Source: a virus
IMG/VR virus record: IMGVR_UViG_3300034737_000034
Span: 1-25,469 of that record
Length of the DNA stretch: 25,469 nucleotides
Strand: one strand, 5' to 3'
The notes below the pieces were generated by a model. It was not told the DNA's origin. It did not search any database and was given only the letters and a program-made list of their open reading frames with translations. Positions 1,139 through 25,469 of this stretch are shown here, piece by piece; position 1 is the stretch's first letter; every line of letters starts with the position of its first letter. The translations under genes were made by a program, and so were the position numbers.

Positions 1139-4021
1139 ATGGAACAGAATATAAATTTTCCTACATTATCATTTTACGAATTTGTAGATACATTAGGACT
1201 ACTTGAAAAGAATGTTAAGAAGTTTGAACCGTCAGATTTAACAGCACAGATTACACATCAAACAGACTTTACACTTGTCTCATTCAATCCGATGGTAGTA
1301 GCACTTTTCAATAATAAACTAACATCAATGAGAGATTTATTTCCATCAACTACTCTTAACTCTTTTAAAAACATCATTAACTCATTAGCAACTGAAGATT
1401 GGAGAGAACTCAGATTTACTATATCTCTTTACTCAAATAATAACCAATCATATCAGAACTTTGAGAAATCAAAAGTGTTAGCAAGAGCAGATATAGATAC
1501 AGCATATCCTCTGGAAGAGTTGGTATTAATGATAGAAAACACTTTCGGAGAGTATTTGCCAAACCTTATACACCGAACCTTTAAAGGTTGGCATCTCTTC
1601 TGGTTAGCAGATGAATTCATAGAAAGAAAAGATAGAAATTTAATAGAGAATTTTGTTGCTCTATTAAATAAATTTAAGTTTAGAACCAAAGCTACTTTTA
1701 TAGATAAGATTGACCTGTTTGGTGCTATGACACGCATTGTAAATAACGATTTACAATGCTATGTCTATAATCAAACTCTTTATTCTGTAAAAGCATTAAG
1801 AGATTTTGATACTAAGAAGTTAAAAAGTAATTATGATTACATCATTCCAGATAGATTAGAATTTGAAGATGTGTTGTCGCATTGTTCTGCATTCCAAACT
1901 CTGGATAACACTTGGGAGACACATTCATATAGACAATGGTTATATATGAGTATGTTATACGCAGCTAAATATATTTTAGCTGATACAGAGATAGAGAAGA
2001 AGAGAATTTATGATGAATTTGTTGAGAAATCTTCTACATATTCAAATGCTAATATTAACAAAATTAAAAAACAGTTTCAGTATTCTTTAAAGTGGGTGTT
2101 GAAAGATGACAAGTTAATACTACCTTCTTGTCGTGCTTTATACATCAGTGGTATATGTGAAAAATGTCCTATCTTCCGAGAGAAAGATGGGAACATAATT
2201 TCACACCCGTTTAGAGACAGTTTTAAGTTCAATGTAAATATAGATGGTTTCATCATCAGAAACGGAAGATGGTTCGCTCAAGAAACTGATAAAGAAGGTA
2301 ATGAGTTATTAATTGAGATATGTAAAGAGTTTAAAATATTGAAAGTGTTAAGAAAGATTATGCCATCAGAAACAATTGACTATTTGAAAATACTTGTTGA
2401 TAACAAGACTTATATAGTTCCAAAAGACAACAAAACTGATGGTGGTCTTAATCTTTCTATTATAGCTAACATAATACCTATTGCTGATAAAAGAAGATTT
2501 AGAAATCTAATAGAAAAATATCTTTATAATCTCAGTTTTGACAAAACCAACTTTATAGAAGTTGATTTTGTCGGATATAGAAAGAAGTTCAATGTTAAAG
2601 ATTATGAGATTGTAGTCGCTAACGAGAATGTATCCGAACAAGATTTGTTCGGCATTCTCTACGGCTACTTTCAAGATAATAATAGTTTAGCTGACTACAT
2701 ACCTGCAAGAAAAGGTAATTATGAGAGATGGAAGGAAGCTTATGTAAAGTTATTTCAACTTCAGGAACCATTATCACTTTATTTAGTGAGTTTCTCTTTA
2801 TCTCACCTACTACTTGATTGGTATAAAGAAAGCACAGGCTTTCTTTTAACACCAATAATTGCTCTGAAAGGTCAGAGTAGAGTAGGTAAAACAAAGAGAA
2901 GTATATTATCACTTGCTCTTTATGGAAAACCGAAAGAGTTTTCTTTTGGTTCTATAACAGAGGCGAGGATTAAAAACCAATTCGGAGTGATAAAAACTCC
3001 GATTATAATTGATGAAGTAGTATCTCGTGGTAGTAATTTTGAGAAGATGCGTAATTTGTTATATCATATAGCAAATGCATCAGTGAAAGCTGATGCATAC
3101 AAGACTGCACCACCAATTAGTTCTCCTGTGATACTTACAGGAGAACCTCAGAACTTCAACCTTGAGAAACTCTTCCAAGAAGCTCAAGGATTGATAAGAA
3201 GAGTATTCACTATTTTATTAAAGAAAGAAACTATTAAAGAAGACTTCTGGAATGCTATAGATTATGAAATACTTCCAGTACTAACTAAAAACTATGGCTG
3301 GATATTTAGGCACTTAAACTCTTTCAAAACTGCTGATTTAGATAGTATGTTTACTGAGACTAAGAAAGTAGTAGATAGTCTATTTCATAGATTTAAATCT
3401 ACACTTTACGAAGACCATTTGACACAGATAACAATCTCATTTATGGCATTCAAAATATTTTATAGAGACTTAGGTATTAGTGAAGATGAAATAAATGAGA
3501 CTATAGTAAAAATCTCTGAGTATCTACTTGAGAAAACAGAAATAATGTCAGACTTCTTAGCATCTGATAACTCATTTGAAGATTTTATCTTAGACACTGC
3601 TAATAAACTAAAAGAAGCATTATCAAACAGAAAAGAGTTATCAGGTATCACTTTATCACAAGCATTAACCAAGAGTAATGTCTCATTGGAAGGTTTAGAT
3701 AAAGAAGAAAGTTCACTGTTAAAACTATGTTTTGGTAAGCGTTATAGTAGTGGTAATTACTATTTTGCTAATAATGTATTGATAGATACTATTTATAAAG
3801 ACACAGATGTAAATAGACTTCTTAATAATAAGACACAAGTATCAGAAAAACTCTGGAACACTTTTGTTGATTTATATAAAGCACTTATCAAAAAGAAATA
3901 TGACCTTAAAACATCACTAAGTATATTTGAAAAGTTAGCAACTGGTGGACTTCCAGAGTTTAAAAGTAGTGATAAACCCGAAGAAATAACTAATGAAGAA
4001 ATAGGGGAGGTAGATTTCTAA
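1139..4021 (+). CDS. Primase-polymerase (AEP-like) fused to P-loop helicase
   Basis: The 960-residue protein appears to carry priming and unwinding activities in one chain. The N-terminal part shows three motifs typical of archaeo-eukaryotic primases: RADIDT (Asp118, Asp120), KGWHLFW (His152) and KIDLFGAMTRIVN. A cysteine cluster near residues 330-345 (SCR...GICEKCP) may bind zinc. The C-terminal part has Walker A GQSRVGKT (578-585), Walker B PIIIDE (Asp625, Glu626), a sensor-like VILTGEP and an arginine pair (LIRRVF). This resembles the DUF927/SF3-like helicases of phage primase-helicases. GGAGG lies ten bases before the ATG. The stop overlaps the next start (TAATG). A polymerase follows, so the set forms a phage replisome. 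Primase motifs are assigned by eye. Confidence 0.75.
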   Translation: MEQNINFPTLSFYEFVDTLGLLEKNVKKFEPSDLTAQITHQTDFTLVSFNPMVVALFNNKLTSMRDLFPSTTLNSFKNIINSLATEDWRELRFTISLYSNNNQSYQNFEKSKVLARADIDTAYPLEELVLMIENTFGEYLPNLIHRTFKGWHLFWLADEFIERKDRNLIENFVALLNKFKFRTKATFIDKIDLFGAMTRIVNNDLQCYVYNQTLYSVKALRDFDTKKLKSNYDYIIPDRLEFEDVLSHCSAFQTLDNTWETHSYRQWLYMSMLYAAKYILADTEIEKKRIYDEFVEKSSTYSNANINKIKKQFQYSLKWVLKDDKLILPSCRALYISGICEKCPIFREKDGNIISHPFRDSFKFNVNIDGFIIRNGRWFAQETDKEGNELLIEICKEFKILKVLRKIMPSETIDYLKILVDNKTYIVPKDNKTDGGLNLSIIANIIPIADKRRFRNLIEKYLYNLSFDKTNFIEVDFVGYRKKFNVKDYEIVVANENVSEQDLFGILYGYFQDNNSLADYIPARKGNYERWKEAYVKLFQLQEPLSLYLVSFSLSHLLLDWYKESTGFLLTPIIALKGQSRVGKTKRSILSLALYGKPKEFSFGSITEARIKNQFGVIKTPIIIDEVVSRGSNFEKMRNLLYHIANASVKADAYKTAPPISSPVILTGEPQNFNLEKLFQEAQGLIRRVFTILLKKETIKEDFWNAIDYEILPVLTKNYGWIFRHLNSFKTADLDSMFTETKKVVDSLFHRFKSTLYEDHLTQITISFMAFKIFYRDLGISEDEINETIVKISEYLLEKTEIMSDFLASDNSFEDFILDTANKLKEALSNRKELSGITLSQALTKSNVSLEGLDKEESSLLKLCFGKRYSSGNYYFANNVLIDTIYKDTDVNRLLNNKTQVSEKLWNTFVDLYKALIKKKYDLKTSLSIFEKLATGGLPEFKSSDKPEEITNEEIGEVDF

Positions 4022-4299
4022 TGAAGAATTATAAAACTCTTGAAGGTTTAATTAGAATTTTTAGTGATTATCAAGATGAATTTACTGATTATGATAGCTA
4101 TTTCGCAAGTAGAATGTTATTGAAAGAGTATTTTGAAATAGTTAAGACTTCAGATTATTTAGACTTTGTTTTTGATGTAGCGATGGAATATATAGCACCT
4201 GAAGATATTTACATAATAGAAGAATTTATTTCAAGTTATTATGAAAAATACTATAAATTATTATTAAGGAGGTTGAAAGATGTATCAACTAATAAATAA
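4021..4299 (+). CDS. Small acidic helical protein of unknown function in replication operon
   Basis: This is a 92-residue protein I do not recognise. It is acidic and rich in Tyr, Phe, Asp and Glu, with probable helices throughout and no cysteine motif, signal peptide or membrane segment. Its ATG overlaps the stop of the primase-helicase, and AGGGGAGG lies just upstream at 4003-4010. Its end overlaps the polymerase start by 20 bases. The tight coupling between helicase and polymerase suggests a replisome accessory factor, but that rests on position alone. Confidence 0.72.
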   Translation: MKNYKTLEGLIRIFSDYQDEFTDYDSYFASRMLLKEYFEIVKTSDYLDFVFDVAMEYIAPEDIYIIEEFISSYYEKYYKLLLRRLKDVSTNK

Positions 4300-5920
4300 C
4301 TTACCTGACTTACCAAGAGATAAGACTTTATATGTAGATACAGAAACAACCAATTTATATGGAGATGTTGTCTTATTACAATTGTATCAGGAAGATTTAG
4401 ATAAAGTTATTATAGTAAATACTAAAAATATCTCCAGAGAAACTATTTTAGAGTATCTAAAAAGTTTTAAACATATAGTAGGTTATAACCTACTATATGA
4501 CTTTGAAGTTTTAGGTGCAAGTTTTGATGATGTAAAAGACAGAAACTTTTATGATGACTTATACCTTGCTTCAAAGTATGTCTTTTATGAACAAGAAAAT
4601 TTCAGCTTATATGATATTCTTAACAATGTGTTAAAGCTTGATATAAAGATAGATAAAAAGAAGATGCAGAGACAAGGTTTTGATGGTCTCTTCTTTACAC
4701 AGGAGCAGTTAGAATACTCTGCTACTGATGTATTACACCTTCCAAAGCTTTACAAAGCAATCTTAAGAATGGAACCTAATCTATTTGACAACAATAGAAT
4801 ATATAGAATGGATTTATTCGTATCCAAAATGATGTTGGATATTCATAAAAACGGTTTAAAAGTGAATAGAAGAAAACTCCAAGAAAGAAAATCAGAACTT
4901 GAAAATAGATTAAAATCTTTAAAGTTTGATTTTAATCCACTATCACCTCAGCAGGTAGCTAAAGTCTTAGGAACTTCTAAGGCTGATAAAGAAGTGTTGC
5001 AAGACTTGGCTTACAGAGGTAATGAAACAGCTAAACAAATATTGGAATATAGAAAGATTACAAAACTTTTAAACTTCATTGAGAAATTTAATAAAGACCG
5101 AGTGTTCGGGAAGTTCAATGTCGTTGGAACTAAGAGTGGTAGAATGTCTTGTTCCAATGAAAATATACAACAGATACCGAGAGAGTTGAGAAGTATTTTC
5201 GGTTTTGAAGATGATGACGATAGAGTGTTTGTAGTAGCAGACTTCCCACAGATTGAACTTCGTCTTGCTGGTCTTATTTGGCAAGAAGATAATATGATTA
5301 AAGCATTTCAAGAAGGTGTAGATTTACACCGTTTCACTGCATCAGTAATATACTCTAAAGATATGGAAGATGTAAATAAAACAGAGAGACAGATAAGTAA
5401 AAGTGCCAACTTCGGACTTCTTTACGGAATGTCTGGAAGAATGTTCTCCAAGTATGTTTACACAAACACAGGTATAGAATTATCAGAAGAAGATGGAGAA
5501 ATGATTAAACAGAAGTGGTTAAATACATATACTAAGATAGCATCAAAACACCAAAGAGTGAAAAATGCTTTATATCCTTTAAGAGTTTATGAAGACAAAA
5601 CAATCTTAGGAAGGAGATATAGAACAAACTCCTTCAATGAAGCTCTTAATATCCAAATACAGGGTTCAGGTGCAGAGTTGTTAAAACAGACATTAATAAC
5701 TTTAAAGTTAAAAAATCCATCTTTAAAGATAGTGAATATCATTCACGATGAGATTATTATTGAATGTGATAAGAAAGAAGCAGAAGAAGTTAAAACACTT
5801 CTAAAGCAATCTATGGAAGAAGCTTGGAAGATACTGTGTAATAAGTCAAAATTAGATATAAAGTATTTTGACCTTGAAGTAGAAGAACCTGAGATATTAA
5901 AAACAATTTCCAAATCTTAA
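4280..5920 (+). CDS. polA: Family A DNA polymerase with 3'-5' exonuclease domain
   Basis: The 546-residue enzyme replicates the phage genome. The N-terminal DnaQ-like exonuclease keeps its catalytic acids: VDTET (Asp20, Glu22), the VGYNLLYDFE segment, and YSATDVLHLP. The polymerase domain shows a T-x-SGRMS...NIQQIP stretch, motif A with Asp321 (DFPQIELR), motif B with Lys374 (KSANFGLLYG), and motif C His489-Asp490-Glu491. No 5' nuclease domain is present, which explains the length compared with about 930 residues in E. coli Pol I. The overall plan resembles proofreading family A polymerases of hot-spring Aquificae viruses; that likeness is from memory and not tested. AAGGAGG at 4266-4272 sits seven bases before the ATG. 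Confidence 0.96.
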   Translation: MYQLINNLPDLPRDKTLYVDTETTNLYGDVVLLQLYQEDLDKVIIVNTKNISRETILEYLKSFKHIVGYNLLYDFEVLGASFDDVKDRNFYDDLYLASKYVFYEQENFSLYDILNNVLKLDIKIDKKKMQRQGFDGLFFTQEQLEYSATDVLHLPKLYKAILRMEPNLFDNNRIYRMDLFVSKMMLDIHKNGLKVNRRKLQERKSELENRLKSLKFDFNPLSPQQVAKVLGTSKADKEVLQDLAYRGNETAKQILEYRKITKLLNFIEKFNKDRVFGKFNVVGTKSGRMSCSNENIQQIPRELRSIFGFEDDDDRVFVVADFPQIELRLAGLIWQEDNMIKAFQEGVDLHRFTASVIYSKDMEDVNKTERQISKSANFGLLYGMSGRMFSKYVYTNTGIELSEEDGEMIKQKWLNTYTKIASKHQRVKNALYPLRVYEDKTILGRRYRTNSFNEALNIQIQGSGAELLKQTLITLKLKNPSLKIVNIIHDEIIIECDKKEAEEVKTLLKQSMEEAWKILCNKSKLDIKYFDLEVEEPEILKTISKS

Positions 5921-14249: not shown

Positions 14250-15149
14250 TTAATCTCCGAAATAATCTTCATCGTCAAAATCATCACCACCATAGTAGTC
14301 ATCACCACCACTATAGTAGTCATCATCTCCACCTGCATAACCACCTGTTGTAGGAGTTCCTCCAGTATATCCACCTGTAGGAGTTCCTCCAGTATATCCA
14401 CCTGTTGTAGGAGTAGTTCCACCAACATCTCCACCTGTTGTAGGAGTTCCTCCAATATCTCCATCTGTAGGAGTTCCACCACCTCCGAAGATACTACTAA
14501 GACCACTTTTTACACTATTCCAAGACGGTAGTCCTTTAGACATTAATAGTCCTGTAGTTAACAAATTACCTAATTGAGATAGAGGAGACATCTTTGGATA
14601 TAAAGCAGTATTTAAACCATTCAATATACCTGCTAATTGAAGTTGCATATTATACTGGTTTATAGTCGGGTCTATACCTGAGAAAGTTTCTCCAAATGCT
14701 GATAATACTTGTGGTGATTTACTATAGTAGTCTAAAAGACTTTGTAATTTAGCTGTATCTAAATTGTTTAAAGCCTGAGTTTCTTCTTCAGCAACACTAC
14801 CGAATAGTTTACTTACTATGTCTGATTGAGTTATCTGAGTTGCTGGTGTGTTATACATTCCCATTGCAGATAAACCTAAAGCAGATTTACTCCACTGATT
14901 ACTCATTTGAGTTTGGATATTGTTAAACAAACTTGAATATCTATTTGTTATACTGGTTGAAGTATTACCAAATAATTGATTTACTTTATCAGGAAAGCTA
15001 CGAAATATAGATAACGCTTCATTTAAATATGGTGCTTCTATATTATATTTTGCTGATGCAATATTACCAACTTGTCCTTCAACACCTTTAATTACATTGT
15101 AAGCTTCTTGTGTCGTAGGTGGTATAACTACTCCTACATTATCACTCAT
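14250..15149 (-). CDS. Virion protein with Gly-Thr-Pro repeats and acidic Tyr/Asp tail
   Basis: The 299-residue product has two parts. Residues 1 to about 225 form an Ala/Leu/Ser-rich helical region with many Asn and Gln (for example SKSALGLSAMGMYNTPATQ), typical of the first internal or DNA-transfer proteins of podoviruses. The last 75 residues are low complexity: repeats of the type GGTPTTGGYTGG followed by an Asp/Tyr/Gly tail (GGDDYYGGDD). The flexible repeat could be a linker or an extended surface element. A GAGG site precedes the ATG, and the gene starts two bases after the adaptor gene ends. A second frame (14240-14506) is open across the repeat only as a by-product of its codon pattern. 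Confidence 0.65.
   Translation of the reverse strand: MSDNVGVVIPPTTQEAYNVIKGVEGQVGNIASAKYNIEAPYLNEALSIFRSFPDKVNQLFGNTSTSITNRYSSLFNNIQTQMSNQWSKSALGLSAMGMYNTPATQITQSDIVSKLFGSVAEEETQALNNLDTAKLQSLLDYYSKSPQVLSAFGETFSGIDPTINQYNMQLQLAGILNGLNTALYPKMSPLSQLGNLLTTGLLMSKGLPSWNSVKSGLSSIFGGGGTPTDGDIGGTPTTGGDVGGTTPTTGGYTGGTPTGGYTGGTPTTGGYAGGDDDYYSGGDDYYGGDDFDDEDYFGD
14276..14485 (-). repeat. Coding tandem repeats (GGTPT units and GDDYY units)
   Basis: Two blocks lie side by side. At about 14329-14485 the units contain CCTGTTGTAGGAGTTCCTCC-like sequence (opposite strand of GGTPTTGG) at roughly 30- to 36-base spacing, with degenerate copies. At 14276-14328 shorter ATAGTAGTCATCACCACC-like units encode GDDYYGG. 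Copies are nearly identical in DNA, indicating recent slippage or unequal crossing-over. There are no spacers, so this is not a CRISPR array. Confidence 0.8.
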
Positions 15150-17560: not shown

Positions 17561-17588
17561 ATTATAATCCAATTTTTAGATTTGTCAA
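17561..17588 (-). promoter_or_regulatory. Consensus sigma70-type promoter for scaffold and capsid genes
   Basis: On the - strand, TTGACA (17588-17583) and TATAAT (17566-17561) are separated by 16 bases. The -35 box overlaps the stop codon of TerL. The upstream and spacer sequence TATTGACAAATCTAAAAATT matches that of the + strand promoter at 5950. It drives the most abundant virion genes. Confidence 0.88.
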
Positions 17589-19039
17589 TATTCAGGTGCA
17601 ACTATTTTAAACTTACTATTGTTTCTCTGTCTTGATACTCCCCAAATCACATAACGCAGTGCATCGTGTATGTGATCGTAGTAGCCGTCCTTGACTGGTC
17701 TCCCGATGTCGTCCATCTTGAACTCACCGAGAAAACCAGCCATAGTAATCGGCACATCAGGAGATATTTGTAAAGCTTTCTGATTACGAATATCTTTATC
17801 TAATAACTCTCTTACTAAACCAACACTATCAAGAATAGGAACCTTGTTGGTAATGATGTTAATATTGTAATCTTGTCTTACTCTATTTATTATTGAAACT
17901 CCATCTGATTGTGATGCTTGTCTTCCTGCGATGTCTCCATACCACTCTACCTGTAAAGCATCAAGACGCCATTTTTCTCTTAATCTTCGTCTTACTGTAT
18001 CTATAAATTGTAAAGTAGATATATTCTCTCCAAGTAATTCATCAATGACTATCAATCTTCCCCACTCATCTTCAGCAAGTAGAACAAATGCAGGTCTTCT
18101 AAAACCAAAGTCTAAACCTGCGTAAGGTTTATAAAAAACTTGTAAGTCTTTAGGAGTTATAACACCTTTGAAAACATTAGCTTCTGTAAATGTAGATGTA
18201 TATAGTCCATCATCTACATAAGCAGAACCCCACTCACCGTGAAGCATAACTCGTTTGAATGCGAAGTTTCTATGTTCCATTTCAACATAGAAACTGTGTG
18301 CTAAGTTATACTTCTTGGCAAGTATGTAATCTCCTTCTCTACCGATAACTGCGTATCGTGTATTATCTATTACATAATACTCATTCTCTTCGTATGTGTA
18401 AGGTTTTGCTTTACTTGTGAATATATGCATTGGTATTTTTACTTTTATAAAGTTATCATAAGAACTCGTTTTGATAACTTTAGTCTGTGGAAATTCGTTT
18501 TTTACGAACTTGCGATATACCCAGTGTGTCTCCGGCACAGGGTTCAAGTTTAGTAAACCTTTGTTAAATTTATGTGGTAGTCTCATTCTTTGTGAAACTT
18601 CGTCAAAAGCTTCTTCACTAATACGGTCAAGCTCATCTATTATAACTACATTAAACTCGTAAGATAAAACAGAACGATATTGCTGGTTTCTATCTGATAA
18701 AGAAAGATAAAAGATTTTGGTTTTCGTTGTTAGGTTTTCTATGTATTGCAGGTCATCTTTAACGATGAAAACCTCATCTTCTTTAGCACCAATCTCCATA
18801 CACTTCTTTTTAAATTCTGCAACCAGCGTATTCTTTAAATCTCTCAAGCTTTCTCTGGCTATCAAAATCTGTGAATTTTTAAATCTTTCATCAAAAAACA
18901 ATGTCAGTAAGATAATAACAGATACAGTAGTTTTTGCTGAACCTTTACCACCAACAGATAAAATCCATCGTGTATCAGGTTCATCAAAGAATGTATTATA
19001 AATAGTTGACTGTTTATCAGTTAAAACTATATTACTCAA
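17585..19039 (-). CDS. terL: Terminase large subunit (ATPase and nuclease)
   Basis: The 484-residue protein pumps DNA into the prohead and cuts it. The ATPase half has Walker A GGKGSAKT at residues 30-37 and Walker B VVIIDE with Asp135 and Glu136. The nuclease half shows AGLDFGFRRP with Asp310, WYGDIAG with Asp369, and YYDHIHDALRY with Asp455/Asp459, the three acidic positions of the RNase H-like terminase fold. The start is TTG at 19039, with AGGAG at 19045-19049 overlapping the previous stop; no ATG is better placed. No clear small terminase is adjacent. TerL lies between tail genes and the scaffold gene, well separated from the portal, which is an uncommon order. Confidence 0.95.
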   Translation of the reverse strand: MSNIVLTDKQSTIYNTFFDEPDTRWILSVGGKGSAKTTVSVIILLTLFFDERFKNSQILIARESLRDLKNTLVAEFKKKCMEIGAKEDEVFIVKDDLQYIENLTTKTKIFYLSLSDRNQQYRSVLSYEFNVVIIDELDRISEEAFDEVSQRMRLPHKFNKGLLNLNPVPETHWVYRKFVKNEFPQTKVIKTSSYDNFIKVKIPMHIFTSKAKPYTYEENEYYVIDNTRYAVIGREGDYILAKKYNLAHSFYVEMEHRNFAFKRVMLHGEWGSAYVDDGLYTSTFTEANVFKGVITPKDLQVFYKPYAGLDFGFRRPAFVLLAEDEWGRLIVIDELLGENISTLQFIDTVRRRLREKWRLDALQVEWYGDIAGRQASQSDGVSIINRVRQDYNINIITNKVPILDSVGLVRELLDKDIRNQKALQISPDVPITMAGFLGEFKMDDIGRPVKDGYYDHIHDALRYVIWGVSRQRNNSKFKIVAPEY

Positions 19040-19047
19040 AACTACTC

Positions 19048-19419
19048 CTAAGTATTAGCTTTTGGTATTTTTATTACTAAGCTGTTAGTGTTAATAATAA
19101 ACTGGTCTTGATTTAAGTATGGTTTAGCTTCTACTAAATCTACAGTAGCTACTAAATTAGAACCATTGTAAAGTTGCACTTTTGAAACAAGGTTGTTAAG
19201 AGGTGCTATATCAGATGTAGCAAGAACAAATGTAATTTGTGAAGTATTAAATATATAGATATAATTACTATCTTCACTTGTTTGAACTTGTCCGAATTGC
19301 ACTCTTTGATAACCACCACCTTGACACTCTGTTCCGTCTTGCCTGACTAATGCTACATATAGATTTGGAAATACTGGAGATATCAAATCTGCGAATGATT
19401 TAGTTAAATTTGTTGCCAT
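19048..19419 (-). CDS. Small virion protein with SGGGY-like signature
   Basis: The 123-residue protein starts with ATG at 19419, nine bases after GGAGG (19429-19433); a TTG at 19428 touches the ribosome site and is less likely. It is beta-rich. Its segment YVALVRQDGTECQGGGYQR (residues 21-39) resembles a signature of small phage proteins often annotated as tail fibre or head decoration, of the form LxxGTExxGGGYxRQ. Later strands contain ATSDIAPLNNLVSKVQLYNG, also typical of that group. It precedes TerL, with its stop within the TerL ribosome site. The family link is from memory of the motif, so the role as a virion surface protein is tentative. Confidence 0.6.
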   Translation of the reverse strand: MATNLTKSFADLISPVFPNLYVALVRQDGTECQGGGYQRVQFGQVQTSEDSNYIYIFNTSQITFVLATSDIAPLNNLVSKVQLYNGSNLVATVDLVEAKPYLNQDQFIINTNSLVIKIPKANT

Positions 19420-19591
19420 TACTATCAACCTCCGATAATATTATTATAACAGAAAAATTAGATGTGTCAATAACTTTCTCATTTAATACCAACTCAGCTT
19501 GAACTGAGTTGTCAGATTTTACATATATTACAACACCTTGAATTACTTTTATACTCTTACCTTGCTTACCTTGTATTATCTTTACACCCAT
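19400..19591 (-). CDS. 63-residue beta-rich protein with internal promoter in its gene
   Basis: This small gene begins with ATG at 19591, eight bases after AGGAG, and overlaps the preceding tail gene's stop by ten bases. Its end overlaps the next gene by 20 bases. The product has alternating hydrophobic strands (VKIIQGKQGKSIKVIQGVVIYV) with no recognised domain. Its DNA carries a perfect promoter at 19443-19470 and the next gene's ribosome site, so its codons in that part (encoding VIDTSNFSVIIILSEV) are constrained by two functions. A minor tail protein or chaperone are possibilities; no evidence decides. Confidence 0.58.
   Translation of the reverse strand: MGVKIIQGKQGKSIKVIQGVVIYVKSDNSVQAELVLNEKVIDTSNFSVIIILSEVDSNGNKFN
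19443..19470 (-). promoter_or_regulatory. Consensus promoter with extended -10, inside the 63-residue gene
   Basis: On the - strand, TTGACA (19470-19465) and TATAAT (19448-19443) are 16 bases apart, and TGT precedes the -10 box to give an extended TGnTATAAT. Transcription should start near 19436, two or three bases before the GGAGG of the 123-residue gene, giving a very short leader. It shares TATTGACA and CTAA with the other two promoters. It would raise expression of that gene and TerL. Confidence 0.8.
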
Positions 19592-20754
19592 AGTGAAAAC
19601 TCCTCTACTCTTAATGCATTATTAGAATGAAGAGTAATGACAAACTCATTACCACGAGCAAGTAATCTGTAATTACTTTTATTGTAAAGTATTCCATAAG
19701 ACCATATATTATAGCCATTGTCATATCTTGCCTCAATTGTCAATGATGCTACTCTATCATTAGTTGTTTTCTGAACTTCTGGAATTCTTATTATCGCAGA
19801 TTTAAAAACTAAGTAAGATGTATCTAATTTAAAACTAATTTCGTGGTAATCTGTAGTAGTTAAAAACTCACTCTGTAAAATATCAGTAATTATATAGAAA
19901 TTAATTTCTTGGAGTTTAAAACACACATTAGGAGTTAAGAATACTGTTTCTCTACCAAAATAAAAGTTTTTCATATCTTTAGTTAAATAGATATAAGAGT
20001 TATAAAGTGTATTATAAAACACAAAAAATGATTGAGTTTCTCTAACAAAGACAATTCCTACATTTTCAAATTCTCTGAACGGTGTGTATTTGTAATCAAA
20101 AGTTTTCATAGTTTGTAAATAAATAATATCTTCTATCTTCATATTTAAAAGAACTGTAAAATCATCTCCAATTAAGAATAATTTATCTTCAAGACTGATT
20201 AAATCTACATTCACAACAGGATTAGAAAATGAAGCGTAAGAGAAAGAGTTTATATTAACAGTAGAACCATCATCAGCAGAAGCAATAGCTCCTGCACTAT
20301 CAAGACCGAAAAAGTGGATAGTTGTAGGATTACTTGTTATGATAACAAAAAGTTGTGGAGTTATCTGTTTTACTTTAATAATGTTTTGGTTAGCATTATC
20401 TATAGTTAAAGTTATTGTTTTAGCTTTATCTGTTGTAGTATCTATTACTAAACATTTGTTTTGATAAAACACATAATAAATAGTTCCGAATACACAAAAA
20501 CCATTAAAATTAGGTGTTTGATATAGTGTATTTAAATTATATAAAACTACATCGGTAGTTTGTTTATAAATATAGATTATTTTATTGTTTAAATAAAAGC
20601 CATCATAAACATCTAAAGTATTAAGAGAAAAGTCAGAGTTTAGTATTTTAAGTATTTGAGGAAATATTATATTTTTATTTTCATTTAACTTTACAAACTC
20701 ACCTGTAATTTTAGTTATCGGTAGGTTTAATAAATTAATAGGTTTTAGCTCCAA
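19582..20754 (-). CDS. Tail protein, possible tail nozzle / gp10-like
   Basis: The protein of about 390 residues is beta-rich with repeated short hydrophobic strands (VVLYNLNTLY, NKCLVIDTTT, KLFLIGDDFTVLL), suggesting a propeller-like core. The C-terminal region (SLTIEARYDNGYNIWSYGILYNKSNYRLLARGNEF..., then RVEEFSLWV) resembles the end of P22 gp10-type and T7 gp12-type nozzle proteins: a DNG/W turn, a short-side-chain/Arg region, and final strands. TTG at 20754 is the preferred start, ten bases after GGGAGG at 20765-20770; TTG at 20763 or 20772 are alternatives but are too close to or upstream of the site. It overlaps the preceding gene by ten bases. The family is tentative. Confidence 0.5.
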   Translation of the reverse strand: MELKPINLLNLPITKITGEFVKLNENKNIIFPQILKILNSDFSLNTLDVYDGFYLNNKIIYIYKQTTDVVLYNLNTLYQTPNFNGFCVFGTIYYVFYQNKCLVIDTTTDKAKTITLTIDNANQNIIKVKQITPQLFVIITSNPTTIHFFGLDSAGAIASADDGSTVNINSFSYASFSNPVVNVDLISLEDKLFLIGDDFTVLLNMKIEDIIYLQTMKTFDYKYTPFREFENVGIVFVRETQSFFVFYNTLYNSYIYLTKDMKNFYFGRETVFLTPNVCFKLQEINFYIITDILQSEFLTTTDYHEISFKLDTSYLVFKSAIIRIPEVQKTTNDRVASLTIEARYDNGYNIWSYGILYNKSNYRLLARGNEFVITLHSNNALRVEEFSLWV

Positions 20755-21452
20755 GTGTTGCAATCCTCCCAATTGTCAAATTTTCGCATCCAAAAAGTCA
20801 TTTTACAGTTCGGATTAATATAAGTGAAACCTGATAAAGAAAATTTAGCATTTGATATAATGTATCTATTATTGTATATAATAGGTGTTATTGTGATACT
20901 GTATTTAACTGTTGAATTTATATATCTTAAATTTGTTGCAGTAGTAATAGTGTTTAAACTAAACTGCATATTTGAATTTAAGTATCTTAACAAACTACCA
21001 CTACTATAAATAGAAATAGGAATAGTAGAAACATTATAAAAGAAAACTACTTTATACTTACTCAATGACTCAGGAACCTTAACATCAGAAGTTAAATAAA
21101 ATTTAATCTCTGTTGAATTTAAATCTTGGTTTAATGTGAAAGTATCTCCAACTATAAATTCTTTAACATTAACAGTAGGTCTTTCTACTCTGTTGAAAGT
21201 ATAACTTGAAAATATGTCAGGGTTGTAAGATTTAACAGGTAAAGGAAACTTAAGTTTAGTTCCTTTAGGAAAGTGTGTTATATCAAAAATGTAAACTTTC
21301 GGAATAACTGTAAAAGAGATATAACCACTCCAGTAATCACATTCATTCCAAGAATTACTAAACTTATACTTCCACGCTGTATTATCACACTTTGTTTGTT
21401 CGTTAATATAATCAGAAAAAGATAGAGTTGTTTTAATTGTATTTATATTCAC
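20745..21452 (-). CDS. Beta-repeat tail or fibre protein candidate with duplicated W-C-WS motif
   Basis: The 235-residue protein starts with GTG, overlapping the previous stop as GTGA, with GAGG seven bases upstream. It is very rich in Tyr, Asn, Ser, Thr and Ile, as in tail fibres and other extended beta proteins. A motif SWNECDYWS near residues 34-42 recurs as NWEDCNTWS at the last nine residues. Between them, residues 156-221 form imperfect repeats starting with RYLNSN, RYINST and RYIISN at 20-residue steps, then TYINPN. No enzymatic motif is seen. A receptor-binding or tail-tip role is plausible from composition and position before the probable nozzle gene, but unproven. Confidence 0.55.
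   Translation of the reverse strand: MNINTIKTTLSFSDYINEQTKCDNTAWKYKFSNSWNECDYWSGYISFTVIPKVYIFDITHFPKGTKLKFPLPVKSYNPDIFSSYTFNRVERPTVNVKEFIVGDTFTLNQDLNSTEIKFYLTSDVKVPESLSKYKVVFFYNVSTIPISIYSSGSLLRYLNSNMQFSLNTITTATNLRYINSTVKYSITITPIIYNNRYIISNAKFSLSGFTYINPNCKMTFWMRKFDNWEDCNTWS
20790..20987 (-). repeat. Coding repeats of about 60 bases (20-residue units)
   Basis: Codons for residues 156, 176 and 196 of the 235-residue protein begin copies of an R-Y-[LI]-N/I-S unit with alternating hydrophobic positions afterwards; a fourth, shortened copy begins at residue 210. DNA identity is low, so the duplication is old or selected at protein level. Confidence 0.5.
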
Positions 21453-21859
21453 TCTTCAACCTCTACTTCTATGAAGTCCTCTATAGACTTCTGTGTAGTT
21501 ATGTTTATGTTTATCATCGGAGTAGTAGTCTGTTCTTGTTTAGGTTTCAACTTATCTGTAGCGTTTGAAAGTGATATAAGTTTTTCTGCTACTTCTAACT
21601 TCGTCTGTAATATCTCATTCATAGTTCGTGCTGGGTTTTTTACTTTACTTAATAAAGATGCATCATTATAAATTAACTCTGCTTGTATATAAGTCTGCAT
21701 TAATATTTTTCTTGCTGTTTCTAAATCTTCTACTTGTCTATGAGTAGCGTAATTTACTACTTCTTTAGTAGATAAAGATAGATTAGAGTTATCTTTAACT
21801 ATCTGTTCTACATCTTCTTTCTTTACAAGTATATTACAGTCCGAGTTTAAGGAATGCAT
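21449..21859 (-). CDS. Helical protein of unknown function, weak small-terminase candidate
   Basis: The 136-residue protein has an N-terminal region with STKEVVNYATHRQVEDLETA and a long helical middle (ARKILMQTYIQAELIYND... and EILQTKLEVAEKLISLSNATDKL). It ends in a beta/acidic tail (MININITTQKSIEDFIEVEVEE). Length and helix-then-tail layout are in the range of small terminase subunits, which are otherwise missing from this window, but no DNA-binding helix-turn-helix is evident and TerL is four genes away. GGAGG lies nine bases before the ATG. It overlaps the ATP-grasp gene by 26 bases and the following gene by four, so it is coupled to both. Confidence 0.6.
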   Translation of the reverse strand: MHSLNSDCNILVKKEDVEQIVKDNSNLSLSTKEVVNYATHRQVEDLETARKILMQTYIQAELIYNDASLLSKVKNPARTMNEILQTKLEVAEKLISLSNATDKLKPKQEQTTTPMININITTQKSIEDFIEVEVEE

Positions 21860-23042
21860 TATAGCAATCCTCCAAATTTTCTAACTCATCAGTTAGAGAG
21901 TATGCTTCAATCTTGCCAAGTAAATCTGACATAGTATTTTTCACTTTATTAAATTCTAAAGTGTTAAATGTTTCACATACAATACCACCTGAAGGTTGTT
22001 CTGCTTTAGGTATATAGTAATCATTTTTAACTTTCATTAGTGCCTCAAAATTAAACCTTTTATCTTTTTCTGGAAAACGGATATTAACAAACATATTTTT
22101 AGTTTCTGTTATACTAAATGGCACTGACACATAATATTTACCTTTATACTTTGGATTAGAGCTATCAAATACTACATCTTTAAAGTTTTCTACTGCGTAT
22201 CTATAACCTAAAGACAGTGGATATGCACCTCTGACAGTAATGTCAAGGAAGTAATGCCTGCCTGTCTTCAGGTTGACAAACTCCTCAGTAGATAACATTC
22301 CTCTATAACCTGTTTTAATTAACAAGTCAGATAGTTTTAATACTGTTTCTTGGATTGGTTTTGGTAGCTCACCGAAACTATTAATAACTCTTCCAATATA
22401 TACTCCTTTCTTATACTCAATTCCCAGCATTAAAGGAAACAGAAAACCACCTTTATCTGCATCAAAGAAACTATCAATACCTACCTCTACATAGTTTTTG
22501 TCTAAATCTAATAATTCTTCCACAACAAATTCCATATCATTTAAGAAAGCACCAAACTCTATCTCTAACTTTGTTTTTAAATTCTTCTTCTGTGTTTCAT
22601 TTGTAATAATGAATGTCTCCATAGAGCCTCTGAATATAGACAATTTAACAACACTTGGAACAGGTATGTTATCATAACCTTTTACAATCTGATATGGTGG
22701 AGATTGCAACTTCATTACAGATAGAGCAGATTTCAAATTCTTTCTGTTTAACTCTAACTCTGTTGCTATACCACCTCCGAAGGTTTTATATCCTTTCTTT
22801 TTCAGAAACTCCATTAAGTCTCCATTTAAAACATCAAAGTTGCAGACAATATCTACCTTGTCTATGTATGTAAAAGGATTATGAACCTTCTTTATATTCT
22901 TAAAACCGTATCCTGATGCATAATCATCAAAGCTTGGAAAGGTTGAGACAAAATCTGTATAGTAATATGTCTCCACTCCTGCTTCTGCAAGAGCTAAAAT
23001 ATGTGAGAATTCTATACCTGTTCCAATCACTAATGCTTTCAT
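21834..23042 (-). CDS. ATP-grasp carboxylate-amine ligase-like protein
   Basis: The 402-residue protein has the ATP-grasp plan of GAR synthetase (PurD)/biotin carboxylase-type enzymes. The N-terminal Rossmann-like start is MKALVIGTGIEFSHILALAEAG, the linker into the ATP lid is GGGIATELELNRKNLK, and the lid includes VVKLSIFRGS (Lys133, Gly139, Ser140). The hinge is FVVEELLD (about 172-179), and the C-terminal part has GYRGML with FLDITVRGAYP. In the family the last segment usually reads ExNxRxG; here it is Asp267-x-Thr269-x-Arg271, so two metal or phosphate ligands differ. It likely activates a carboxylate with ATP to form an amide bond. It lies between portal and tail genes beside an amidoligase-like gene, not beside purine genes. 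The substrate is unknown. Confidence 0.82.
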   Translation of the reverse strand: MKALVIGTGIEFSHILALAEAGVETYYYTDFVSTFPSFDDYASGYGFKNIKKVHNPFTYIDKVDIVCNFDVLNGDLMEFLKKKGYKTFGGGIATELELNRKNLKSALSVMKLQSPPYQIVKGYDNIPVPSVVKLSIFRGSMETFIITNETQKKNLKTKLEIEFGAFLNDMEFVVEELLDLDKNYVEVGIDSFFDADKGGFLFPLMLGIEYKKGVYIGRVINSFGELPKPIQETVLKLSDLLIKTGYRGMLSTEEFVNLKTGRHYFLDITVRGAYPLSLGYRYAVENFKDVVFDSSNPKYKGKYYVSVPFSITETKNMFVNIRFPEKDKRFNFEALMKVKNDYYIPKAEQPSGGIVCETFNTLEFNKVKNTMSDLLGKIEAYSLTDELENLEDCYNAFLKLGL

Positions 23043-23479
23043 TTTTTATATATCTCCTCTACATCTTGATAGATTTGGTTTACTTCTTCTTCTGTCTTTT
23101 TACCTTCTATTACCTGTAAAACATTATGAGCCACTGATAAGTCTTTGAAGTCTGATGTGTATATCTTCGGAAATAGAAGATGATGTGTATGACCTTTGTA
23201 GGTCATTGTGTCTTGAGAGAAGAATATTCTGTGTCCGTTCATTAAAACAAAAGCTTGTCTATTTGGATTGTAGTAATCATCAATAACTTTAGCTTTATGT
23301 ATCTTGAGTAAATTTTTTATATAAAGAGTTAGTGCTTCATTAGGTCTATATTCAAAAAATACTTCATCATCAACTTTTCTGCCGACAATATCACTACCAA
23401 ACATAATAAAAGTAGGTGTTCTAACTTTCTTAGTAAAAGCTTCTTCTACAGATAAAAAGTCTGGTTCAGTGAGAAACAT
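23039..23479 (-). CDS. Divergent, short amidoligase (COOH-NH2 ligase-like) candidate
   Basis: The 146-residue protein contains three elements in the order expected for phage COOH-NH2 ligase-type proteins (phiEco32-like group). These are an N-terminal TEPDF (compare DPEF), then MFGSDIVGRKVDDEVFFEYRPNEA (Gly28 to Ala49, with Glu43 and Arg45 as in the ExRP motif), then YKGHTHH (Gly96, His97, His99, compare GGHIH). The family is usually about 250 residues, so this copy is short, missing mainly the C-terminal half or strongly reduced. It overlaps the ATP-grasp gene by four bases, and that pairing is the second line of evidence. AAGGA lies eight bases before the ATG. The assignment is by eye and needs profile search. 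Confidence 0.42.
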   Translation of the reverse strand: MFLTEPDFLSVEEAFTKKVRTPTFIMFGSDIVGRKVDDEVFFEYRPNEALTLYIKNLLKIHKAKVIDDYYNPNRQAFVLMNGHRIFFSQDTMTYKGHTHHLLFPKIYTSDFKDLSVAHNVLQVIEGKKTEEEVNQIYQDVEEIYKK

Positions 23480-23747
23480 CTATCATATCCTTTATTTTGT
23501 CAACATCTTCAGGTTTAAATGGTATCACTTTATTTCTTTCTTTATTGTTTTTAAATTTATCTATACTTAACTTAGTTAAGTATTTCACTGCTTCTGTTAA
23601 TTCTTCTATTCTTGTCTTAACTTCTTGCTGTGATGCTTTCTCATCGTTAAAATCAAATCTCAATCTCTTAAGTTCATAATAAAGAAAGAGTATTAATCCA
23701 ACATTAACTATAGTTCCTATAACATTAATCATTATCAGAACTTGCAT
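23466..23747 (-). CDS. One-helix membrane protein with coiled coil, following portal
   Basis: The 93-residue protein has an N-terminal hydrophobic helix (residues about 2-24, VLIMINVIGTIVNVGLILFL) and a charged coiled coil (EKASQQEVKTRIEELTEAVKYL). It ends in a basic then acidic tail. The ATG at 23747 is chosen because AAGGAGG lies five bases upstream; the frame extends to 23786 inside the portal gene without such a site. It overlaps the portal gene by 23 bases and the amidoligase-like gene by 14. The layout repeats that of the gene at 7953-8156. Membrane location is likely; holin, spanin-like or ejection-associated roles are possible. Confidence 0.7.
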   Translation of the reverse strand: MQVLIMINVIGTIVNVGLILFLYYELKRLRFDFNDEKASQQEVKTRIEELTEAVKYLTKLSIDKFKNNKERNKVIPFKPEDVDKIKDMIDVSH

Positions 23748-25469
23748 TAGAGCCTCCTTGTGATTGAGCTTGAGACACTTTAGCATTAGCTATCATTTGA
23801 ATATACGCCATTAGTGTTTGTGGGTCTTGTGATAGTTTAGCTAACATCTCTTTGTCTTGTAGTATCTGTTCTGATACTGATGAAGATAATTCTTCAGATA
23901 TTTTTTGTTTTTCAGATTGAGCTTTTGCCATTGCTTGTAATTCTTCAGGAGTTGGTATTCTAACAAGTTCACTATCAAGTTGTAAGATTTGGAATATTCT
24001 CTTGAAGATTTCTACCATATTCAAATATGGTATCAATCCAAGATTAGAAGATAGTTCTACTATATCCATAATATTCTCAAGTTCTTCTTTCTGCTTTATT
24101 ACTCCTGACATACCTTGCACCTTAACAACGGTGCCTTTATACAATTCTTTTATAAGATAGTAGTATGGTTCTCTATCTTCCATAATAGCCTTATTCATTA
24201 ACTCGTTCATTTCTTTTAACTCTGTAGGTTCAAGCATTCCAGAGTTAATTATTTCGTTTAGGTGATACTGGAACATTAAAGAGATAAGTTTTCTCGTAAT
24301 ACGTGCGATGAACTCATCTTCAATTCTATTTATAATTGTTGAAATTACATTTTGGTTCATTTGTGTTTTGAGTGCAACTTCCTTCGCAGTAGGACGCCCC
24401 TTAGAAGTCGGCTGTCCCATTAAAAACTCAGTCAACGCACTAACATTCTGAGCTTCTTGGAGTATCAATTGACGCACTGGAAGAACATTAGGGTCAAACG
24501 ATGCCATACTGAACGGTCTTATAGCTTGCTGGTCTGAGACAGATTTAATCACTGTGAAAGGTTTCACAGTGAAGACTTCATCTTGACTTGAAAGTGCAGA
24601 TGTGTTTATCTCAAATCCCATCGTTGTAGATAAGATAGCACGGTCAATTATCGCCCTGATTAATCTGCTGTCCTCTTTGTAGTAGTCCCAGATGAGGTCA
24701 GCGTAGGAAAGCTGCATCTCATCTGAGTAGAACGCTATAGATATAACTGGTAGTTGTTTATCTGCGTGAAGTATATTCTCTACATCTACTAATTCTTTAT
24801 CATTATATATTGTGAATTTCACAGGTAAAGAAACATCACCTTGAGGATTTACATATCTACCGAAGATATATGATATTTTGCCATATGTAGTTCGGTCTCT
24901 CATAGATGTTATCAAATAGTCAGTTCTATCTTTATCAGTAGTTAAGTTATAAACTTCTAATTTCTCTGGTTGATACTTCCAGAGTTTAGAAAGTCCTTTA
25001 ATCTTCTCAATTGGTAAAAAGACATCGTAAGCGTAAAACTGATTATCTGATGACTTATAATATTCTAAAGGATTTAGTGCTTTTGCAAGTATCGTAAACT
25101 CTACATCGTCCCACTCGTCCACAGAGTAGTCAGCGTCTAATAACACTGACAACTCTCCAGACAGAATTCCAAACCACAACGCCTTATCTATCTTTTCAAA
25201 TAATGATGTTTTATAGACACCAAGATTGAATACCTTCCTATATGCAGATGGAAGGTAAGTGAATTTCTTACTTTCAAAAGATAAAAGAGATTTTGTGGAT
25301 TTGTGAAGTAATGCACGCAAGTAAAGATATGCGAACAAAGTCTTCTGAAAGAAGATAGAAGACTTTATATTAGTTCGCCAATTACCTGTAGCATCATCAG
25401 GGTCAGGAATGACTGTGTTGCCATTGAGTTCAGATAAGTAGTCAATTACTCTACTTCTACGAGGTTGAG
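23725..25469 (-). CDS. Portal protein (5' end outside window)
   Basis: The frame is open to the right window edge with no stop, and the TTG at 25338 is internal, so the gene is incomplete here; at least 580 residues are present. The portal is the dodecameric ring for DNA entry and exit. The middle holds a wing/clip-like beta region, then the stem and crown region with SYADLIWDYYKEDSRLIRAI. The segment QEAQNVSALTEFLMGQPTSK leads to GRPTAKEVALKTQMNQ, a common motif of podoviral portals. A long helix and a Gln/Ser-rich tail (SQAQSQGGSNASSDND) follow. It precedes the membrane protein and amide-ligase pair, forming the upstream part of the virion operon. Confidence 0.88.
   Translation of the reverse strand, partial: QPRRSRVIDYLSELNGNTVIPDPDDATGNWRTNIKSSIFFQKTLFAYLYLRALLHKSTKSLLSFESKKFTYLPSAYRKVFNLGVYKTSLFEKIDKALWFGILSGELSVLLDADYSVDEWDDVEFTILAKALNPLEYYKSSDNQFYAYDVFLPIEKIKGLSKLWKYQPEKLEVYNLTTDKDRTDYLITSMRDRTTYGKISYIFGRYVNPQGDVSLPVKFTIYNDKELVDVENILHADKQLPVISIAFYSDEMQLSYADLIWDYYKEDSRLIRAIIDRAILSTTMGFEINTSALSSQDEVFTVKPFTVIKSVSDQQAIRPFSMASFDPNVLPVRQLILQEAQNVSALTEFLMGQPTSKGRPTAKEVALKTQMNQNVISTIINRIEDEFIARITRKLISLMFQYHLNEIINSGMLEPTELKEMNELMNKAIMEDREPYYYLIKELYKGTVVKVQGMSGVIKQKEELENIMDIVELSSNLGLIPYLNMVEIFKRIFQILQLDSELVRIPTPEELQAMAKAQSEKQKISEELSSSVSEQILQDKEMLAKLSQDPQTLMAYIQMIANAKVSQAQSQGGSNASSDND

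Follow-up and report, generated by a model that had tools for sequence, protein, structure and literature searches.

A divergent predicted ATP-grasp ligase of the PurD/PurK type encoded in the virion operon of an uncultivated virus group

The described phage systems that come closest to the gene pair analysed here are the clusters of phiEco32 and Cellulophaga phage phi14:2, in which a RimK-type ATP-grasp protein is encoded together with a full-length COOH-NH2 ligase and an amidoligase, a glutamine amidotransferase and a gamma-glutamyl cyclotransferase. Other phage ATP-grasp ligases form a separate R2K clade and have been predicted to be protein modifiers (PMC4431377). The locus considered here lies in a stretch of 25,469 nucleotides (the window), positions 1 to 25,469 of the IMG/VR virus record IMGVR_UViG_3300034737_000034. 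Its likeness to the phiEco32 and phi14:2 clusters is one of adjacency only, a phage ATP-grasp gene beside another gene; those clusters are placed among replication and metabolism genes, whereas the ATP-grasp gene here is located in a virion operon. With the PurD and PurK enzymes, in contrast, the predicted protein shares the fold along residues 1-399 (Z about 21), the domain order, the ATP/Mg residues and the metal strand, although the identity is about 15% and the protein is virus-encoded in a virion operon with no purine genes adjacent. A sequence-only reading of the window had regarded the pair as a minimal two-enzyme amidoligase system, with the smaller partner as a half-length amidoligase.

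The two genes are located downstream of the portal gene, between portal and terminase. The features of the region, all on the minus strand, are as follows.

23725..25338, minus strand: portal gene (PHROG 332, E 4.4e-8); the window edge truncates its start, and the portal is longer in relatives
23466..23786, minus strand: TM106, 106 aa, with an N-terminal membrane-type segment and a coiled-coil-like tail as judged from its sequence, between portal and P146
23039..23479, minus strand: P146 gene, 146 aa, without a family or fold match, with varying motifs, and kept where the ATP-grasp gene is missing
23039..23042, minus strand: 4-base ATGA stop/start overlap of P146 and the ATP-grasp gene, from coordinates and junction sequences (15/15 pairs)
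21834..23042, minus strand: ATP-grasp gene, 402 aa, assigned by Foldseek and VIA matches along 1-399, hhalign to PurD and conservation in 15 sequences
21449..21859, minus strand: P136 gene, 136 aa, overlapping the 3' end of the ATP-grasp gene
17585..19039, minus strand: TerL, the large terminase subunit, used for the tree (Pfam Terminase_3, E 4.4e-17; PHROG 2, E 8e-29)

A first search identified seven related virus contigs. Later searches extended the set by eight contigs that carry all or the start of the ATP-grasp gene and by three in which P146 alone occurs. The two genes are neighbours in the window and at 14 further loci, invariably overlapping by 4 bases, within a shared order of portal, TM106, P146, ATP-grasp, P136, P235, P396, P63, P126, TerL, scaffold and capsid. 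The four-base overlap described from the sequence was thus confirmed by the coordinates and by its recurrence in all 15 pairs. The placement of the pair between portal and tail genes proved roughly right: it does lie downstream of the portal, but what comes next is five unassigned or fibre-like genes, followed by TerL, scaffold and capsid. Identity to the window copy across the loci is 56-87% for the 402-aa protein and only 21-76% for P146; pairwise dN/dS (dS < 1) is about 0.04-0.1 for the ATP-grasp gene and 0.02-0.15 for the P146 gene. Given the conserved pairing and overlap in 15 loci and the low dN/dS of the 402-aa gene, both open reading frames are genes under purifying selection, which is strong for the 402-aa gene, and not chance ORFs.

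Profile searches gave no indication that P146 belongs to the amidoligases. The PF14395 and PF12224 profiles matched neither P146 nor its 18 relatives, nor was a match found in a six-frame search of seven records. P146 hit no family in Pfam, PHROG or NCBIfam, and searching its relatives against amidoligase models returned nothing at E up to 10. Profile comparison of P146 yielded 0.2% with the phiEco32 amidoligase and 0.1% with the phiEco32 COOH-NH2 ligase, a comparison that is weak alone, the phiEco32 comparators being single sequences that fail to find each other. The ExRP and GHxH letters on which the amidoligase proposal had been built are literally present in the window copy, at positions 43-46 and 96-99, respectively. 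They carry no meaning as motifs, however, since their columns vary among 19 relatives: E, D or N occurs at position 43, R, W, S, T or H at position 45, and H, Q or I at position 97. The residues of P146 that do not vary are F24, G33, K35, E39, F41, K55, K59, D68, Y70, R74, G82 and F87, together with Y94, G96, F103, S109, D110, D113 and Y137. With no profile match, no conservation of the motif letters and no similarity to the phiEco32 proteins, the assignment of P146 as an amidoligase or COOH-NH2 ligase, including its half-length version, was rejected.

The AlphaFold model of P146 (pLDDT 79, pTM 0.64) consists of strands, one helix, strands and three helices. It had no Foldseek match in the PDB at E<=0.001 and a best VIA Z of 3.0, which is neither proof of a new fold nor exclusion of any fold, a glutamine-synthetase-like one included. 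A further candidate, the OB-fold DNA-binding protein PrgE or a lactococcal phage SSB, was also dismissed: the PDB profile E value of 0.007 went to 0.15 with more relatives, and against the PrgE/phage-SSB family profile P146 scored 21.4 while the top shuffled score was 21.1, which is shuffle level. P146 is best read as a small protein in its own right, linked to the ATP-grasp protein at most through translation. This corrects a tempting misannotation, in that short motif letters in a neighbouring gene do not make an amidoligase system.

The two genes can also be separated. In three near-identical contigs of one lineage (L025, L026 and L027) P146 is intact and P136 lies directly next to it, joined by an identical ATGA overlap; the P146 stop codon thereby overlaps the start of whichever gene comes next. 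The ATP-grasp gene was not found elsewhere in these contigs, which are fragments of 6-19 kb, while the lineage keeps all other structural genes. In a portal tree the lineage groups with L006 and L020 (98/99 support), both of which carry all or the start of the ATP-grasp gene, and the sister clade has the gene as well, so that it is kept in both deep clades. The simplest history suggested by this tree would be one clean loss of the ATP-grasp gene. Because P146 persists in a lineage without the ligase, the two do not form an obligate pair and the ligase is not essential. Among the neighbours in this lineage no obvious acceptor motif was lost, in a comparison of one loss event only. The same lineage has a shortened TM106 with internal deletions (L025:1914-2156 and L027:2178-2420) and a P146 shortened at the N-terminus. 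No amidoligase, COOH-NH2 ligase or GATase_6 was detected in seven records (the window and six related ones, some of them fragments), which agrees with the earlier remark that no glutamine amidotransferase is visible. The proposal of a minimal two-enzyme amidoligase system was not supported by these analyses: P146 is no amidoligase by the above comparisons, the ATP-grasp protein appears to be of another type (see below) and the pair is not obligate.

The 402-aa protein is recognised by no family in Pfam, PHROGs or NCBIfam. Its identification as an ATP-grasp protein, made by the sequence-only reading, is nevertheless upheld by structural matches and by a profile match to PurD. The AlphaFold model, generated with 15 virus sequences (pLDDT 73.9, pTM 0.77, with residues 313-351 at pLDDT < 50), has a pre-ATP-grasp domain at about 1-90, an ATP-grasp domain at about 90-290 and a C-terminal domain at about 300-400. 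Foldseek with this model returned 503 PDB chains at E<=1e-3, with PurK/PurD first (E 1.4e-15), and the 50 best PDB matches were all ATP-grasp enzymes (50/50). VIA superimposition onto B. subtilis PurD (2xcl) covered 346 residues with a Z of 21.6 and an rmsd of 4.8 Å. The Z was 20.7 for Aquifex PurD, 18.8 for PylC and 18.2 for RizA, with the PylC/RizA-type ligases spanning 17.8-18.8; on a predicted model, this ranking among PurD, PylC and RizA does not settle the substrate of the 402-aa protein. PylC/RizA-type L-amino acid ligases have the same three-domain architecture, with Z somewhat lower than PurD/PurK, and amino-acid amides are plausible products of the 402-aa enzyme because of this shared architecture.

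Comparison of the 402-aa profile with nine PurD sequences by hhalign resulted in a probability of 79% (E 1.6e-5), versus 4.8% for a reversed PurD profile used as control; the PurK profile, with 6.8%, stayed at control level. The PF01071 (GARS_A) profile did not match the protein, which by sequence does not group with PurD proper. The comparison with phiEco32 gp80, which is RimK-type, gave 0.1% but is powerless alone, as PurD versus gp80 also gave 0.1%. For the R2K clade, which is characterized by a second conserved Lys downstream of the strand-2 Lys and by DUF4343/CDC123 profiles, there was no Pfam match, and the occurrence of the basic linker residues R100 and K104 at PurD positions leans against membership. 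Model and profile comparisons together place the 402-aa protein among the ATP-grasp enzymes of the PurD/PurK type and not with the RimK type found in the known phage amidoligase clusters.

Residues E97, R100, K104, K133, E175, E186, E209, E253, D267, T269 and R271 are invariant in 15 sequences. In a full-length alignment, E97, R100, K133, E175 and E186 correspond to PurD E102, K105, K145, E187 and E194, and D267, T269 and R271 to PurD E286, N288 and R290; this alignment is permissive and itself favours such residue matches. For the PurD residues, ligand roles were taken from the Aquifex enzyme (PMC8880213), with the numbering shifted by 2-3. Of 11 PurD ligand or metal-strand positions, nine keep their chemical class, eight of these being invariant in the 15 sequences and one Lys/Arg. 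E253 is aligned with PurK E226. The ATP-binding Lys/Glu and the two metal-binding acids are present (K133, E175, E186, E97, E253 and D267, aligned with PurD/PurK), and the pre-ATP-grasp residues G7, G9, E11 and H14 are invariant near the place of the PurD GxGGREH motif. Neither the GPNTGGMG loop of PurD nor the RPHNSGH loop of PurK is found in the 402-aa protein. At the PurD glycine site, formed by D214, R290 and E295, the chemical class is kept at E209 and R271, but E295 is replaced by the invariant L276. As a glycine-contacting Glu of PurD is lost by this replacement, glycine is predicted to be an unlikely substrate.

Two of the substitutions relative to PurD, K105 to R100 and N288 to T269, possibly reduce or alter the chemistry. 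The latter belongs to the metal strand, in which the sequence-only reading had pointed out an altered DxTxR motif. The motif is real, and D267, T269 and R271 are invariant in 15 sequences. It need not be disabling: the PurK equivalent is E238-A240-R242 (E-x-A-x-R) with an invariant Ala, so an enzyme with Thr in place of this Asn may still be active. The canonical ExN of the last metal strand reads D-x-T here and E-x-A in PurK, and the Asn is thus not universal.

Judged from the model and the alignment, the 402-aa protein is quite probably a catalytically competent carboxylate-amine ligase that acts late and in an accessory role. For such an enzyme we infer acylphosphate chemistry, an amide product and late expression. 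ATP and two Mg2+ would be held between the halves of the ATP-grasp fold by E97, R100, K133, E175, E186, E253 and D267, as in PurD. R271 would position the carboxylate substrate, probably one other than glycine, and ATP would phosphorylate the carboxylate to form an acylphosphate. The N-terminal pre-ATP-grasp domain would provide most of the binding site for the amine, which would then attack the acylphosphate to give the amide, ADP and phosphate. The enzyme would work without a viral amidoligase or glutamine amidotransferase. Its gene place suggests that it is probably made late, with the head, neck and lysis proteins, and it is probably useful to the virus, though dispensable.

As to what the ligase might make, the reading that holds up best, plausible yet well short of established, is a small-molecule ligase producing an amide metabolite needed late, such as a modified nucleotide precursor, a dipeptide or a cofactor, with the operon place setting only the timing. 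The complete PurD/PurK three-domain architecture with Z of 18-21 to small-substrate enzymes fits this role, as do the invariant G7, G9, E11 and H14, and genes for thymidylate kinase, ThyX and a PAPS-reductase-like PP-loop protein occur in related records; the missing PurD E295 contact and GPNTGGMG loop, and the lack of an adjacent metabolic gene, speak against it. Alternatively, the enzyme might join an amino acid or a small amine or acid to a virion protein (portal, neck or scaffold) or to the host envelope late in infection, which we consider a tentative and rather doubtful option. At every locus having it, the ATP-grasp gene lies inside the virion/lysis operon, and the R2K-clade phage ligases offer a precedent in that protein modification is predicted for them (PMC4431377). 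However, the nearest structural relatives PurD, PurK, PylC and RizA act on small molecules, the ATP-grasp-less lineage keeps its other structural genes, and no acceptor motif loss was seen in the neighbours. Location favours the virion or envelope; because the modelled architecture is that of small-molecule enzymes, a small-molecule ligase appears to have a slight edge over an enzyme that modifies proteins or the envelope. A more specific scenario, in which a viral ligase derived from PurD acts as a self-contained enzyme and places an amino acid or small group on the assembling particle or host envelope under hot conditions, is unlikely; if true, it would be a virion or envelope modification at high temperature without a described equivalent.

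It is more unlikely still that the protein is a non-catalytic ATP-grasp fold serving as a structural or scaffolding component of the virion. Such a role could be read from the position of the gene between portal and terminase and from the replacement of Asn by Thr and of Lys by Arg in the active site, but at overall identities of 56-87% the ATP/Mg positions do not vary, PurK tolerates a residue other than Asn there, and one lineage lost the gene and kept the virion genes. That the pair is a minimal phage amidoligase system, with P146 as a half-length COOH-NH2 ligase and the ATP-grasp protein as its partner, is highly improbable: adjacency with the 4-base overlap in 15 loci and the ExRP and GHxH letters of the window copy are outweighed by absent profile matches, varying letters, the survival of P146 after loss of the ATP-grasp gene and the missing glutamine amidotransferase.

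The window has the gene set of 'Pyrovirus' (TOSV/OS3173 and kin), described in PMC7689252 as uncultivated hot-spring viruses predicted to infect Aquificota: DUF927, a family-A polymerase with 3'-5' exonuclease, a Cas4-like nuclease, a helicase fragment, portal, TerL and capsid. The spacing is also that of OS3173 ORFs 16, 25 and 27, namely portal, eight genes, terminase, one gene, capsid (PMC7689252); the assignment is made from gene set and spacing against that text and not from direct sequence comparison with OS3173. The DUF927-exonuclease-PolA polyprotein is 1608 aa in the related record G006 and 1606 aa in OS3173 (PMC7689252). A related 40-kb record combines a fused 1608-aa polyprotein and a sliding clamp with the same virion operon including the ATP-grasp gene. 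The window (1139-5920, plus strand) encodes DUF927 and PolA as two separate genes, the related record L065 (9505-14331, minus strand) as one 1608-aa polyprotein. PMC7689252 predicts the structural gene block to be late, and its main text mentions no ATP-grasp gene. By analogy with that study, the host of the window virus may be a member of the Aquificota. A short-peptide scan of 84,980 prokaryote genomes detected no relatives of the ATP-grasp protein or TerL, hence no host from a provirus, and no relatives were found in GenBank phages.

Most sampled members of this hot-spring virus group, which has no cultured representative, have conserved the ATP-grasp family; it is as conserved as the terminase, yet unrecognised by Pfam, PHROGs and NCBIfam. 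It is a divergent unannotated family in a known superfamily at an unusual genomic place, and its mechanism class is already known. The 402-aa enzyme is an expressible, probably thermostable candidate for substrate discovery.

Several other genes were noted in the window and the related records. The 126-aa gene before TerL (window 19048-19428, minus strand) scores 27.5 bits against Pfam PF23140 (podophage GP4 fiber I protein gp80), just above the cut-off of 27; this slot is called small terminase by synteny in PMC7689252, a call that the match makes look doubtful for this gene. A PAPS-reductase-like PP-loop protein (PF01507) is encoded in both of the long related records, at L065:17258-18370 (minus strand, E 6e-15) and L066:14942-15982 (plus strand, E 1e-12), and goes unmentioned in the available text of PMC7689252. 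In L067, thymidylate kinase and ThyX-type thymidylate synthase genes lie side by side on opposite strands (18872-19913). A 299-aa protein of the window (14250-15149, minus strand) has a C-terminal GGTPTTGGY-like repeat, and its length ranges from about 280 to 568 aa among relatives.
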